From Candidatus Cloacimonadaceae bacterium (lineage in GTDB: Bacteria; Cloacimonadota; Cloacimonadia; Cloacimonadales; Cloacimonadaceae): DNA of 61,323 bases. Positions 622 to 61,214 of the stretch are shown here, in pieces. The DNA lies in assembly GCA_030693415.1 (NCBI GenBank), contig JAUYAR010000029.1, positions 1 through 61,323 on the forward strand. The letters are read 5' to 3'. The notes beneath the pieces were generated by a model. The model made no database searches. It saw nothing but the letters and a program-made list of their open reading frames with translations, and was not told the DNA's origin. The position numbers were made by a program, and so were the translations under genes. Positions within the stretch are counted from its first letter, which is position 1. Each line of letters starts with the position of its first letter.

Positions 622-1058
622 CAGGAGAGAGATGGGCGTGCAGCACGCAATATGTTGAGGGATAATGATATAGATTGTTTTGCCGAGAGGCATGACATTA
701 CACGGTTATTCATTCGCCGACGGGATAGAGCTCCTTCGTGTCGCCGACGAGGACGTCGGCGTTCCATGATTCGACGTCCCCGTCGGTTCATATTGGCAGT
801 GATCGGATATTTTACGCCGTCAACCAGCATATCATCGACGTTTAAAACTAAAATTCTGCCCTGCGCCAGAACGCGATTCATCTCTTTTGCCACATTGGAC
901 ATCACTTCAAAGTACTTTTCATAGTCCTTGTAGAAACCTTCATAATCAAAAGGTGCATTGAAGTATGGAGGCGAAGTAACAATCAAGTGAATTGATTCGT
1001 CCTTCACTTCCGGCATTGTCTCACAATAACCGATGATTAGTTTATGAAATGTTTTCAT
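621..1058 (-). pseudogene. N4/N6 DNA methyltransferase, truncated by a REP-like repeat
   Basis: Residues 1 to about 88 look like the start of a beta-class DNA methyltransferase. They contain the catalytic motif IV as TSPPY (residues 29-33) and then FDYEGFYKDYEKYF and a VLNVDD strand. After KYPITA the frame runs into translated palindromic repeat (RRGRR, RRRPRRRH) and then unrelated sequence to a stop at 621. In this class the target-recognition region and the SAM-binding FxGxG motif follow motif IV; both are missing, so the product cannot be an active enzyme. No partner restriction gene is visible. The genuine part is about 797-1058. Confidence 0.8.
716..791 (+). repeat. REP-like hairpin pair inside the methyltransferase remnant
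   Basis: This contains the GCCGACGG prefix module, then GCCGACGAGGACGTCGGC (743-760) with the tail GTTCCATG, followed by a partial opposite-facing hairpin, CGACGTCCCCGTCGGTTCAT. It is the same repeat family as at 17753, 22351, 26357, 27633 and 35190. It lies at the exact point where similarity to DNA methyltransferases ends, so it looks like the interrupting insertion. Confidence 0.85.
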
Positions 1059-17752: not shown

Positions 17753-17880
17753 ATGGAATTACCGACGTCCCCGTCGGTTCATGTCCGCAGGATCAGTTAC
17801 AGATTTGTGGATGGATTACGATATGTGCAAATGTGTCAAGCTCAGCGCCACCGTCGCCGACGGGGACGTCGGCGTTCCAT
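17753..17880 (+). repeat. composite REP unit U1
   Basis: It opens ATGGAATT and hairpin ACCGACGTCCCCGTCGGT, continues with one TTCATGTCCGCAGGATC module and a TTACAGATTTGTG module, and closes with hairpin GCCGACGGGGACGTCGGC and GTTCCAT. It is the shortest complete unit, at 128 bp. From here to 18058 I see no gene. Confidence 0.9.
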
Positions 17881-18058
17881 GAGGTGGCGCTGTGGGGAAT
17901 CGGAATTACCCACCCCACTGGGAAGCCGAACTCCGATTCGGCTAAGTCGTAAAAAAAAACTCTCCTCCCCATGCTTGACATTATGTCATCATAGTCCGCA
18001 GTAATGCAAGAACATATCAATACTATACACATATTCATAGCAAGCTTGTCTCTCCTTA

Positions 18059-18116
18059 GCATTACGGAGTCAATACGGACTTAGTCCGTAATGAGTCCGT
18101 ATTGATTCCGTAATGC
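18059..18116. repeat. long nested hairpin, copy 2 (inverted)
   Basis: This is the exact reverse complement of 564-621 over 58 bp. It is followed by AAGGGGGAGATGTAGCG and the modules in the next entry. Confidence 0.92.
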
Positions 18117-18121
18117 TAAGG

Positions 18122-18235
18122 GGGAGATGTAGCGCAGGATGCCGATCCTGCGGGTGAACAGATGAGCGGGTGAACAGGTGAGTGGGTGAACAGGTGAACC
18201 CGTCATTCCAGCGAAGGCTGGAATCCAGTCCTTGA
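18122..18235. repeat. accompanying modules: GCAGGAT palindrome, GTGAAC repeats, ATTCC palindrome
   Basis: In order: GCGCAGGATGCCGATCCTGCG (an inverted repeat), a run of GTGAACAGGTGA-like 8-mers at about 18154-18200, and CATTCCAGCGAAGGCTGGAATC at about 18204-18225, a palindrome resembling the CATTCCCGCGAA repeats found in many bacteria. The first two recur in the same relative order, inverted, at 61060-61134. No gene is seen in 18236-18355. Confidence 0.7.
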
Positions 18236-22350: not shown

Positions 22351-22496
22351 ATGGAATTACCGACGTCCCCGTCGGTTCCTGTCCGCAGGATCGGTTACAG
22401 ATTTGTGCATGGTTTACAGATTTGTGCATGGTTACGAAATTGGTAGATGTGTGATGTTTATCGCTACTGTTGCCGACGGGGACGTCGGCGTTCCAT
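22351..22496 (+). repeat. composite REP unit U2
   Basis: The order is ATGGAA hairpin, one TTCCTGTCCGCAGGATC module, two GGTTACAGATTTGTGCATG modules, a constant block (TTACGAAATTGGTAGATGTG ... ATCGCTACTGT), then the GCCGAC hairpin and TTCCAT. It starts 10 bp after the hydrolase stop. Confidence 0.92.
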
Positions 22497-22545
22497 GAGG
22501 TGGCGTTCCATGAGGTGGCGTTCCATGAGGCGGCGTTCCATGATT

Positions 22546-22709
22546 ATGGAATTACCGACGTCCCCGTCGGTTCTTTTCCGCAGGATGGTTCCTGTCCGCA
22601 GGATCGGTCACAGATTTGTGCATGGGTCACAGATTTGTGCATGGTTTACGTATTGGCAGATGCGTCATGTTGATCGCTACTGTTGCCGACGGGGACGTCG
22701 GCGTTCCAT
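22546..22709 (+). repeat. composite REP unit U3
   Basis: As U2, but with two GTCCGCAGGAT modules and two CACAGATTTGTGCATG modules. Between U2 and U3 (22497-22545) the closing foot GGCGTTCCATGA is repeated three more times in tandem. Confidence 0.92.
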
Positions 22710-25382: not shown

Positions 25383-26021
25383 TTATTTTTGATTGCTTCG
25401 AACAACGCGGTTTCTAGTCCCAGGGAAAACACCGGTCTGATCTGAGTTCACCATGAGCGGGTCGCCGATTGAAGTTGAGAAGTTGTTGTCCCATTCTCCC
25501 ATCCAATCGATGTATTCGGCAGCAACAAACGCTTGTTCAGTGTTGCTCCAGTAACTTACTGTCGTTGCGCTTGCCAAATCGCCGACTAAACCAGCAAGGT
25601 TAAGATCGCTGCGATTCAAAGGAATCATTAACATGCTGTTACCAGAGACTATTTGATATACAGGGTGAGTTGCAGGGAGTCCGCCAATGCTATAAAACGT
25701 TGTTGATGCACCACAATTAACCATTAATACTGAGCCGTTCTGAACAGGGAAATTGTTGTCCCATTCTCCCATCCAGTCGATATATTCGGCAGCAACAAAA
25801 GCTTGTTCGGCATTGTCCCAATAACTTACTGTCGTAGCGCCGACCAAATCTCCTACTTCACCAGCAAGAGACAGACTCATGGTCATTGGTAGAGCAAGCA
25901 TCGAGTTACCAGATGCAATCTCATACTTTACATATCCGACGACTTCGGACGGAGCAGATTCGACCGCTGCCAACATGCCAAAGGCAACCAGGAGCAACAG
26001 CGGCAATAATAATTTTTTCAT
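25383..26021 (-). CDS. small secreted protein made of two near-identical repeats
   Basis: 212 aa, a signal peptide (MKKLLLPLLLLVAFGMLA) and two tandem repeats, about 31-108 and 118-197. Both contain SGNSML, GDL, ATTVSYW and the identical run FVAAEYIDWMGEWDNNF. No family is recognised. The C-terminus has no sorting domain. GGAGG lies upstream, and a Fur-box-like palindrome precedes it. It is cotranscribed with the 742-aa protein and may be its partner. Confidence 0.75.
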   Translation of the reverse strand: MKKLLLPLLLLVAFGMLAAVESAPSEVVGYVKYEIASGNSMLALPMTMSLSLAGEVGDLVGATTVSYWDNAEQAFVAAEYIDWMGEWDNNFPVQNGSVLMVNCGASTTFYSIGGLPATHPVYQIVSGNSMLMIPLNRSDLNLAGLVGDLASATTVSYWSNTEQAFVAAEYIDWMGEWDNNFSTSIGDPLMVNSDQTGVFPGTRNRVVRSNQK

Positions 26022-26356: not shown

Positions 26357-26832
26357 GTGTCGCCGACGGGATAGGAGCCCGTTCGTGTCGCCGACGGGGA
26401 CGTCGGCGTTCCATGGTCATGGAATTACCGACGTCCCCGTCGGTTCATGTCCGCAGGATCGGTTCATGTCCACAGGATCGGTTTATTTACGCAGGATGGT
26501 TTTACGAAATTGGTGGCTGTGCGATGTTCATCGCTACTGTCGCCGACGGGATAGGAGCCCGTTCGTGTCGCCGACGGGGACGTCGGCGTTCCATGGTCAT
26601 GGAATTACCGACGTCCCCGTCGGTTCTTGTCCGCAGGATCGGTTCATTTACGCAGGATGGTTTTACGAAATTGGTGGCTGTGCGATGTTCATCGCTACTG
26701 TTGCCGACGGGATAGGAGCCCGTTCGTGTCGCCGACGGGGACGTCGGCGTTCCATGGTCATGGAATTACCGACGTCCCCGTCGGTTCATGTCCGCAGGAT
26801 GGTTCATGTCCGCAGGATCGGTTCTTGTCCGC
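26357..26832 (+). repeat. REP array left of the RAYT gene (two complete units and two halves)
   Basis: A leading half ends at 26414, unit U4 spans 26419-26594, unit U5 spans 26599-26755, and a trailing half starts at 26760. The units carry one to three CATGTCCGCAGGATCGG modules, a constant block with TTACGAAATTGGTGGCTGTG, and an extra GGGATAGGAGCCCGTTCGTG module before the closing hairpin. Adjacent units are joined by GGTC. The array stops 25 bp before the RAYT stop codon. No real gene lies in 26188-26857. Confidence 0.93.
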
Positions 26833-26857
26833 ACACTCACCTCTGCACTTTCAGTCA

Positions 26858-27499
26858 TTATTCAATCAACCCAGGATGATAATAACTATTCCTCCACTCA
26901 GACCTATCTTTGACCAAACCTGCTTTGACCGGATTGTCCAGAATATACTCTACTTCATGGTAATAGTGTTTTGGACTACGGATAAACCGGTCAAAATATT
27001 CATGTGCCCATAGCGTTCCTGAATGATTCATCACTTTATTTATCTCTTTAGCAGAATAAGTCTTGATCTTTTTCACTATCTCGCTGGTTTTGTGCCACAT
27101 TCCAGAATTTTCTTTGAGGGGCTTGATCATGAGATGGACATGGTTTGACATCACGCAATATGCGTGCAACTCATATAACCGGTCATTATAATAATGAAAC
27201 GCAGTTGTCAAAATCAGTGCGGTGGACGTTTCAGTCAAAGATATCCCCTTTAGTGAGCACTTTCCAAGGTAAAGATCGATCTCCTGCAATTTGTCACCGA
27301 TTCGGATGAATTGATCAGAATCGTATTGAGCAGAATCAAGGTCATTTCCCCATGATTTCATCATTTCTCGTAGATCTTGATAGTGAAAAAGCAGCGGCTT
27401 TGGTAGTGTGAACGCTAAGCGCCACGTTAGTGAAATGATCTGACCTTGCTTTAGAAAATGAGGCAGTCTGCCTTTGTGATTTTCAATTATATTCGACAT
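26858..27499 (-). CDS. REP-associated tyrosine transposase (RAYT, Y1_Tnp family)
   Basis: RAYTs are single-copy, HUH-type nucleases related to the IS200/IS605 transposase; they bind and cut REP hairpins as single-stranded DNA. Here 213 aa carry the HUH motif in CVMSNHVHLMIKP (His120, His122) and the late helix EYILDNPVKAGLV with the candidate catalytic Tyr185. EYFDRFIRSPKHY (167-179) is also typical. AGAGG lies 6 bp before the ATG. Palindromic arrays lie on both sides, the usual RAYT arrangement, so these are its likely substrates. The protein seems full length. Confidence 0.92.
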   Translation of the reverse strand: MSNIIENHKGRLPHFLKQGQIISLTWRLAFTLPKPLLFHYQDLREMMKSWGNDLDSAQYDSDQFIRIGDKLQEIDLYLGKCSLKGISLTETSTALILTTAFHYYNDRLYELHAYCVMSNHVHLMIKPLKENSGMWHKTSEIVKKIKTYSAKEINKVMNHSGTLWAHEYFDRFIRSPKHYYHEVEYILDNPVKAGLVKDRSEWRNSYYHPGLIE

Positions 27500-27632
27500 T
27501 GAGACCTCTCAGAAGTGTTAGTAGGGGGCAGCATCTGGCCGTCGGGTATATTTGTAAAGATATATTTTGATCAGTCCTCAAGATAATAACATGGTTCTGG
27601 TTATTCGATCTCGGGTTAGAAGCCCGTTCGTG

Positions 27633-27960
27633 TCGCCGACGGGGACGTCGGCGTTCCATGATCATGGAATTACCGACGTCCTCGTCGGTTCATTTCCGCA
27701 GGATCGGTTCATGTCCACAGGATGGTATTACGAAATTGGTAGATGTGTGATGTTCATCGCTACTGTTGCCGACGGGGACGTCGGCGTTCCATGATCATGG
27801 AATTACCGACGTCCTCGTCGGTTCATGTACGCAGGATCGGTTCATTTCCGCAGGATCGGTTCATGTCCACAGGATGGTATTACGAAATTGGTAGATGTGT
27901 GATGTTCATCGCTACTGTTGCCGACGGGGACGTCGGCGTTCCATGGGGTGGCGTTCCATG
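27633..27960 (+). repeat. REP array right of the RAYT gene (two complete units and a half)
   Basis: A leading half ends at 27659; unit U6 spans 27664-27792 and unit U7 spans 27797-27944, followed by an extra GGGTGGCGTTCCATGAG foot. Modules are CATTTCCGCAGGATCGG and CATGTCCACAGGATGG types, then the constant block TTACGAAATTGGTAGATGTG. Units are joined by GATC. Both opening hairpins here carry GTCCTC instead of GTCCCC in the loop. No gene is seen in 27500-28033 otherwise. Confidence 0.93.
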
Positions 27961-35189: not shown

Positions 35190-35402
35190 ATGGAACGCCG
35201 ACGTCCCCGTCGGCGACACGAAGCTCTATCCCTATGCGAAAATAGCGATAAACCTGACATGTCCACCAATTTCGTAAATCATCTACAAATCTGTAGTCAA
35301 CCCACAAATCTGTAGTCAACCCACAAATCTGCAGCCGATCCTGCGGACATGAACCGACGGGGACGTCGGTAATTCCATACGCCGACGTCCCAGTCGGCGA
35401 CA
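35190..35402 (-). repeat. composite REP unit U8 with an extra half unit
   Basis: U8 (35190-35377) is inverted relative to the others: read on the minus strand it has one CATGTCCGCAGGATCGG module, three ACAGATTTGTGGGTTGACT-like modules, the constant block, and a module ending GAGCTTCGTGTC before the GCCGAC hairpin. A further hairpin, CGCCGACGTCCCAGTCGGCG, follows at 35379-35402. It starts 9 bp after the nuclease stop. No gene is seen in 35181-35543. Confidence 0.92.
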
Positions 35403-53886: not shown

Positions 53887-55122
53887 TTCTTTATCACCAT
53901 TAATCTAGTTTTTGTTAACCGTGTAATCGTGCTCTATTGTGTCATCGCTTTGATGTGGAGCAGGATGCCGATCCTACTCAGTAAACACTTTTTTACCGCG
54001 AGCAAGTGGCTTCACAATCCATTCCAATGACCTTTCTCCCAAAGAAAAAACATGGCAATCCTGTCAAGTGCAATCAGGTTTTTCTCACATCCCCCCGTTT
54101 TACATGCAGGGGATTTCCGGGCGCAATAATCCCTCCTCACAATCTTCAATCTGAGCTTTCCTACTTGCATGAACTCCCTTCGAGCATACTGTCTAACCAA
54201 GTCACAAAATTGTTTCCCCGTTTCAGTTTGATCCGTTTTGTGAAAGATGCCGGTAGCACAAAAGAGAAAGGGCATTCCACAATGGAGATGATCTTTTTGA
54301 AACAGGGCAGCACAAAAGATAAGCCCCGTAGGGGCGTCATATCTTAGCGAGGGACTTTACACCCCTCGCTATTCTTCTGATATTTATGGAAAAACAGCAA
54401 TACCGGTAGCCATTGAGTAGAAAATTGGAAAGAAAAAAACTACGCTATCGCCCAAGAGCCGACAAACAAGAGCACTTGGGAAGGTAAGAGAAACTGCTCC
54501 AACTGCTCCAACTTGCTTTATTTTCAATCTATTGCCATTCCTTCCTCTTTCCAAGGCCTTAATCAAGCCTTAATCAAGCGTTAATCAAGCGTAATAAAAC
54601 TAACGCTTGATTAACGCTTGATTAACGCTTGATTAACACTGTGGATGTAGCGCAGCATAGTGGAATCGGAAATCCAAGAAAAATTGCCTTAATTCCTGTG
54701 ACCTGGCGTGTCACCCTGTGACCATCATGTGACTGAAAATAAGGCTGGTATTACAAATGGGAGAAAGCCTTATTGATTAATCATTGACAGAAATACATTG
54801 ATCCAATTGTATGCTCTTTATTATCTGTCGTGATTATAAGTGAGGTTATTATGGTTGAAGTAAAATCGAAATTCTCGTCAATAACTTTCATATCCATAAA
54901 GTATCTACCTCTTGAGAATTGAGATTTGAGACGGCTTGCAGCTTTGCAGGGCTATAATACATCAAAGAATGGCAGACGCTCGGAAAACAGAGCCACTCAA
55001 GTGCGGATTTGCTTGATCCCGATCCACCAACCCCTCTCTTTCGATTTTCTCATTGACGAAAAAGGCGAACCGCGCAGAGAGTGATTGGATACGAAAATTG
55101 CCGTCCAGGCAAGGAGATAGAT
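53887..55122. other. repeat-rich intergenic stretch of 1.2 kb
   Basis: Contents seen: GGAGCAGGATGCCGATCCTAC at about 53959-53979; a GC-rich palindromic block (AAGCCCCGTAGGGGCGTC and CGAGGG ... CCCTCG) at about 54321-54372; the nested hairpin at 54559-54636; GATGTAGCGCAG at 54645-54656; and several GTGAC-type short repeats near 54700-54735. Frames of 60-113 codons occur on both strands at 54006-54347 but look random. I find no convincing gene. Confidence 0.7.
54559..54636. repeat. long nested hairpin (TTAATCAAGCG type)
   Basis: The left arm has three tandem TTAATCAAGC(G/C) units and the right arm three CGCTTGATTAA units, separated by a 9-nt loop around AATAAAACT. The design matches the hairpins at 564, 18059 and 50076. 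It is followed by GATGTAGCGCAG, as at 18125. Confidence 0.9.
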
Positions 55123-61059: not shown

Positions 61060-61214
61060 CGTTCACCCTCTCACCCGTTCACTTGTTCACTCGTTCACTT
61101 CGCAGGATCTTCGCAGGATCGGCATCCTACGCTACAAAAACCCATCTTGCACCCTAAAAATCCGTTTCTTCCCCCTTTGCATTACGGAATCAATACGGAC
61201 TCATTACGGACTAA
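61060..61214. repeat. composite of GTTCAC repeats, GCAGGAT palindrome and hairpin copy 3
   Basis: In order: GTTCACCCTCTCACCC and further GTTCACT units (about 61060-61100), GCAGGATCGGCATCCTACGC with TACA, a spacer, TTCCCCCTTT and GCATTACGGAATCAATACGG onward (61179-61214). The last part equals the first 36 nt of the hairpin at 564, then breaks off at GGACTAA. It mirrors 18059-18200. No gene lies in 60844-61227. Confidence 0.8.

Follow-up and report, generated by a model that had tools for sequence, protein, structure and literature searches.

Composite repeat units of a Cloacimonadaceae bacterium as probable REPINs with a modular, variable interior

The composite repeat units of Candidatus Cloacimonadaceae bacterium are best explained as REPINs that would be mobilised by a REP-associated tyrosine transposase (RAYT) encoded inside one of them; we assign a probability of approximately 0.82 to this reading. 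At the sequence level it is based on inverted hairpins with the fixed ends ATGGAA...TTCCAT, on the RAYT gene within a unit, on the matched hairpins and on the module differences between units. The analysed stretch of DNA, below named the window, comprises 61,323 nt and corresponds to contig JAUYAR010000029.1 of assembly GCA_030693415.1. Units of the genome are designated by contig and position.

Architecture and distribution of the composite units

According to the first-pass annotation, each unit begins with an ATGGAA-hairpin (left end, LE), continues with A modules (GTCCGCAGGAT), B modules (ACAGATTTGTG), a constant block and an optional C module (GATAGGAGCCC), and is closed by a second hairpin ending with TTCCAT (right end, RE). 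This order is obeyed by all eight complete short units of the window, which start at positions 17753, 22351, 22546, 26419, 26599, 27664 and 27797 of the plus strand and, on the minus strand, occupy 35190-35378. The span 22351-22709 consists of two such units, 22351-22496 (A1 B2 C0) and 22546-22709 (A2 B2 C0), which are separated by 49 bp. The features of the window are:

743..767, plus strand: RE hairpin; an LE-like hairpin core (773-786) lies 5 nt further on
17753..17880, plus strand: composite unit A1 B1 C0
18354..18381, minus strand: LE hairpin without RE (other tail type)
22351..22496, plus strand: composite unit A1 B2 C0
22497..22545, plus strand: spacer between tandem units, with the 15-bp RE-foot repeats GGCGTTCCATGAGGT
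22546..22709, plus strand: composite unit A2 B2 C0
26370..26414, plus strand: truncated unit that lacks LE and consists of a C module and the RE hairpin
26419..26594, plus strand: composite unit A3 B0 C1
26599..26755, plus strand: composite unit A2 B0 C1
26760..27659, plus strand: RAYT-bearing unit with LE, two and a half A modules, the RAYT gene, a C-like module (27615-27632) and RE
26858..27499, minus strand: RAYT gene, 213 aa, HVH motif; Y1_Tnp, REP-associated tyrosine transposase
27664..27792, plus strand: composite unit A2 B0 C0
27797..27944, plus strand: composite unit A3 B0 C0, identical to 27664..27792 except for one 19-bp module
35190..35378, minus strand: composite unit A1 B3 C1

The window contains further repeats. 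An 11-bp based repeat, CATTACGGACT, is located at 551-630, 18047-18125 and 61167-61214, that is, close to both window ends and at 18 kb, with one copy in opposite orientation. A long inverted repeat of 11-bp units (GCCTTAATCAA / TAACGCTTGAT) with 43-nt arms, 10 nt apart, occupies 54550-54645; a similar stretch also follows the LE at C80:20351. A 212-aa ORF on the minus strand (25383-26021), for which no Pfam match was found, holds a 120-nt direct repeat with 85% identity.

In the window, GTCCGCAGGAT occurs 16 times with at most one mismatch (1.17 expected), GATAGGAGCCCGTTCGTG four times (0.03 expected), and the hairpin core 23 times (0.31 expected), which excludes chance. The draft genome (2.81 Mb, 185 contigs, 99.81% complete) contains 229 hairpin cores with at most one mismatch; the reversed control gave none. 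With at most two mismatches, 145 LE and 70 RE hairpins were identified, and 52 LE-to-RE units were extracted from 85 stretches and the window. The stretches cover 100 of the 145 LE places and all 70 RE places. The set of complete units should therefore be nearly complete, and the counts of solitary LE copies are lower bounds. Short units (n = 51) have lengths of 65-263 bp, and one further unit comprises 900 bp. An exact search for the core CCGACGTCCNCGTCGG, which leaves diverged hairpins of other genomes uncounted, yielded 208 copies in this genome, seven in G013, two in G027 and none in the other 114 of 117 genomes. The 116 genomes searched in addition to this one belong to other genera, and the reversed pattern had no match across all 117.

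The units are intergenic: 7 of 51 unit centres lie within an ORF of at least 120 aa, compared to 2047 of 3042 control positions (67%). Near-identical units are found at separate places with different flanks, which would fit movement as a unit. Some LE copies have a different interior or no RE, and among the LE copies of the stretches taken, 40 of 132 carry another tail. In one array (L097, G000:C143:10487-11303), LE copies with the other tail GCTACGCGGCAACCTCATCAAAGG follow each other at a spacing of 72 bp, interrupted by one composite unit.

All genomic units were parsed by means of dynamic programming with A (CGGTTCATGTCCGCAGGAT), B (CGGTTACAGATTTGTGGAT), the block (K), optional C and RE. 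The same grammar holds genome-wide for 48 of the 51 short units, the exceptions being C44:889, C121:115 and C116:326. The fitting units contain one (42 units), two (4 units) or three (2 units) A modules. The number of B modules is 0, 1, 2, 3 or 8 in 11, 12, 14, 10 and 1 units, respectively, the eight copies being those of C65:18605, and a C module is present in 13 units. For units with one A and no C module, the lengths are 100-109 bp (B0), 125-128 bp (B1), 146-148 bp (B2) and 165-168 bp (B3). For the inner modules, originally given as 17-19 bp, the length is mostly 19 bp in A and B (49 of 61 and 60 of 78 parsed modules, respectively) and 23-28 bp in C. Furthermore, the block deemed constant is not constant; its first approximately 19 nt often resemble another B module. 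Outside the unit, the RE foot is often tandemly repeated (GGCGTTCCATGAGGT, 15 bp), in the window at 22487-22543 and at unit flanks genome-wide. These copies form a second variable repeat adjoining the units.

Whole-module differences between units

An all-pairs alignment with strict gap costs bears out the proposal that the ends are fixed while the interior varies by whole modules. The closest pairs differ by gaps of exactly module length, and the contrary outcome, that is, scattered substitutions only, was not found. No substitution and one 19-bp gap distinguish C29:27664 from C29:27797 and C150:647 from C82:5295. One substitution and a 20-bp gap were found for C80:40634/40845 and for C2:213/359, and one substitution with gaps of 19 and 28 for C143:34806/C53:21917. 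The pairs C29:26419/26599 and C65:18434/18605 each show two substitutions, combined with a gap of 19 bp in the former and of 96 bp, corresponding to five modules, in the latter. At an identity of at least 94%, 12 of 36 pairs are gap-free. Note that only pairs combining few substitutions with module-length gaps were taken as evidence; some forced alignments between distant units remain, and their gaps (112+23, 82+53) are meaningless.

Both processes suggested at the outset, slippage within units and recombination between them, have left a trace. B modules of one unit differ from each other by 3.24 edits and those of different units by 4.72 edits, a closer similarity within units that local slippage or duplication predicts; this difference was reached in 0 of 2000 permutations of a test that ignores the relatedness of units. 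For A modules, no within-unit similarity was seen (2.50 versus 2.72 edits, 793 of 2000 permutations). A trace of recombination is C143:10847, which joins two unit types. It follows five LE copies of the 72-bp array and has the upstream sequence, the LE and the tail letters GCTACGCGGCA in common with them, and beyond GCTACGCGGCA its interior is that of the C2/C120 lineage. Whole modules have also been gained independently in the related genome G027: two units at its C2 contain the inner RE-side segment twice and thus have 135 letters, compared to 102-104 in the others of this type.

Slippage or unequal exchange between the 19-bp repeats is the most likely source of changes in module number. Because the modules share the borders GGATCGGTT, either process would gain or lose whole modules; in addition, homologous LE copies may sometimes swap their interiors. 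Recombination between units alone, with no contribution of slippage, is an unlikely origin of module number. It agrees with the clear chimera C143:10847 and with tandem unit arrays that have identical ends, but not with private module variants that are amplified in one unit or pair (AGACTAAACTTGTGGATGAT at C80, GAGAATTGTGGAT at C65), nor with the closer similarity of B modules within units. It is extremely unlikely that the draft assembler gained or lost the 19-bp repeats. The position of the units would allow for misassembly of some tandem or end copies: 17 of the 52 units lie at most 200 nt from a contig end, and only 27 are separated from one by more than 500 nt. However, both members are more than 500 nt away from contig ends in four of the ten module-change pairs checked (those of C29:27664, C80, C143/C53 and C29:26419), and the length classes of 125-128, 146-148 and 165-168 are sharp. 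The modules might also be functional binding sites whose number is kept by selection, given that their sequence is recognisable across the genome; IHF or gyrase sites occur in E. coli BIMEs. This is quite unlikely, since the B count ranges from 0 to 8 with no fixed number, units that differ by a single module show no further difference, and the units of relatives have wholly different interiors.

Many contigs end at units because introns land at the hairpins. A multi-copy family of group II introns is represented in the genome by 14 domain V matches and 16 identical 5' ends. In 15 of the 16 cases, the 5' junction is located exactly at the foot of a hairpin of the first family, after LE (9) or RE (6), at the TTC/CTC end; the remaining junction adjoins a hairpin belonging to the second REP family. 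In the 12 of 14 3' ends that were read, the 3' side starts with CAT. Among the contigs concerned are C7, C34, C52, C120, C121, C124, C128, C132, C138, C149, C150, C153, C161 and C164. This preference is tighter than the one described for P. putida KT2440, where 2 of 9 group II introns are REP-associated (PMC1525189).

The RAYT gene and its hairpins

The ninth LE-RE pair of the window (26760-27659) has a transposase gene as its interior. The ORF (26858-27499, minus strand) matches Pfam Y1_Tnp above the cut-off (1.9e-7) and the NCBIfam profile of REP-associated tyrosine transposases (NF047646) with 1.5e-21 and 76.8 bits, which narrowly misses the cut-off of 80. The family profile matches the TnpA-REP chain 4er8 at 8.2e-13. 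H120, H122, Tyr179 and Tyr185 are invariant in 11 proteins, and either tyrosine is a candidate for the catalytic residue. The location of this gene inside a unit, which the first-pass annotation overlooked, tells what the repeats are: since the RAYT lies within one unit, the short units look like non-autonomous derivatives of it, and the transposase encoded in this one copy probably moves all units. No counterpart to the K block of the short units was recognised by eye in the RAYT unit.

The 52 LE/RE pairs are inverted REP palindromes with a spacer, as in REPINs. In each of the four window units that were folded, the ends are predicted to pair with each other, so that the whole unit forms one fold, with z values of -3.5 to -6.0. 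This predicted whole-unit fold is shared with REPINs, as are the high intergenic copy number and the link to a cognate RAYT. The foot of most hairpins in this and three related genomes reads GGAN, not GTAG or GTGG.

RAYT matches were found in 78 of 117 genomes. Judging from the organism names in the public collection, the closest relatives of the RAYT fall in Candidatus Cloacimonadota. The closest RAYT (53%) is from G027, where two RAYTs are each located between LE and RE hairpins. From 31 RAYT loci, one partial match was omitted and 30 were read; 26 had flanks of at least 200 nt on both sides. The two flanks of one locus have a word of 14 nt or more in common in 24 of these 26 loci, compared to 3 of 650 cross-locus pairs. 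In the hairpins of G027, G013 and G039, the apex ACGTCC(C/T)CGT is kept, as is mostly the GGA foot, and the stem has changed on both sides. Thirteen hairpins from four genomes were compared; they had been selected for being palindromic around the apex, so that pairing is favoured. Of their stem cells, 99% are paired, and 27 cells have changed on both sides. Stem covariation of these hairpins is 0.712, compared to 0.193 after shuffling; the number of pairs with a change on both sides is no higher than in the shuffles (155 of 500).

The interiors of the relatives' units are wholly different from those described here. G027 units contain the extra inner hairpins AAGCTTCGCAGAAGCTT and AAGGCCCTCCGGGCCTT, and the flanking modules of relatives have the character of a second hairpin, which was likewise overlooked at first. 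The idea that C is a second hairpin everywhere was dropped, because a clear stem is confined to 3 of the 13 C modules (stems of 5, 5 and 7 bp). All that remains in the A module is a short stem around GCA, and the resemblance of this module to the CTCCGCAGGAG hairpin found in G013 and G027 is no more than suggestive. A second RAYT of the genome (C45:955-1587) is 42% identical to the first and belongs to another hairpin family. On either side of this RAYT is a direct copy of a composite repeat that contains GCCGAANTCCGATTCGGC hairpins (L092:750-1740). Hairpins of this type have 39 copies in the genome with at most two mismatches, one of which adjoins the first window unit (17891-17945).

In the mechanism we propose, the RAYT would bind single-stranded LE and RE hairpins via the GGAN foot and the ACGTCC(C/T)CGT apex and would copy or move the whole unit, as is thought for TnpA-REP with GTAG hairpins (PMC8266576). 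The interior would not be read by the transposase and hence would be free to vary. Each module ends with GGAT, which resembles the GGAN foot in front of the hairpins, so that cuts by the RAYT at internal borders are conceivable. If it edited module number itself, by cutting and rejoining single-stranded DNA there in 19-bp steps, the units would be REPINs with a length set by their own transposase; we regard this as highly improbable. Alternatively, the units might be MITEs or elements of the BOX type, mobilised by an ordinary double-strand DNA transposase; the RAYT would then merely have landed in one of them. Terminal inverted repeats and module variation also exist in BOX, which is thought to depend on an IS transposase (PMC3049150). 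Such an origin is very unlikely, as repeats of their own surround the RAYTs of relatives at 24 of 26 loci and the two G027 RAYTs lie between LE and RE hairpins; repeated chance capture is unlikely.

Relation to known repeats and implications

Literature searches for Cloacimonadota with RAYT or REP and for 19-bp module variation in REPINs gave no related report, which for the latter does not prove absence. To our knowledge, BIMEs contain no 19-bp tandem modules. The units share inverted palindromes and short modules in a mosaic with enterobacterial BIMEs, as far as these are covered by excerpted descriptions; hairpins and modules are different.

The following comparisons refer to excerpts of the cited papers. 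REPINs consist of inverted REPs, two per element, that enclose a spacer of lower conservation; they are predicted to form a single hairpin, and are intergenic and RAYT-associated (Bertels and Rainey 2011, PMC3116915). All of these properties recur here; in contrast to REPINs as described there, the spacer changes in steps of whole 19-bp modules, GGAN takes the place of GTAG at the foot, and a RAYT resides inside a unit. With TnpA-REP and the REPtron, the system has in common an HUH-type Y1 protein adjoining its own hairpins and a tetranucleotide 5' of the stem (PMC8266576, PMC6006769; 4er8). The characterised TnpA-REP proteins use GTAG/GTGG (PMC8266576, PMC6006769); subclasses that lack GTAG and have atypical structures at their flanks have also been described (PMC6006769). 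In the behaviour of its modules, BOX of Streptococcus pneumoniae (PMC3049150) comes closest among known systems; it is mobile and modular and has fixed ends (boxA, boxC) and a variable tandem boxB. For BOX, dependence on ISSpn2 and not on a RAYT has been proposed (PMC3049150), and the likeness is one of architecture only. In REP dimers with structured spacers, the spacer measures 20-100 bp and in some cases carries small stem-loops at one end or at both, as in CGTC-3 of A. tumefaciens (Di Nocera 2013, PMC3733652); the excerpt of that report describes no variable tandem modules.

The REPIN/RAYT kind is already known, and so is BOX-like module variation; new are the variable interior and the occurrence in the little-studied phylum Cloacimonadota. 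The variable units would be usable as strain markers, and the natural length variants are material for testing whether hairpin spacing matters. The phylum-wide matched sets of RAYTs and hairpins, in which apex and foot are constant and the stem covaries, offer data on the recognition of non-GTAG repeats. With ends that are strictly kept and a spacer that is a variable tandem repeat, the units tell on which REPIN parts selection for mobility acts.
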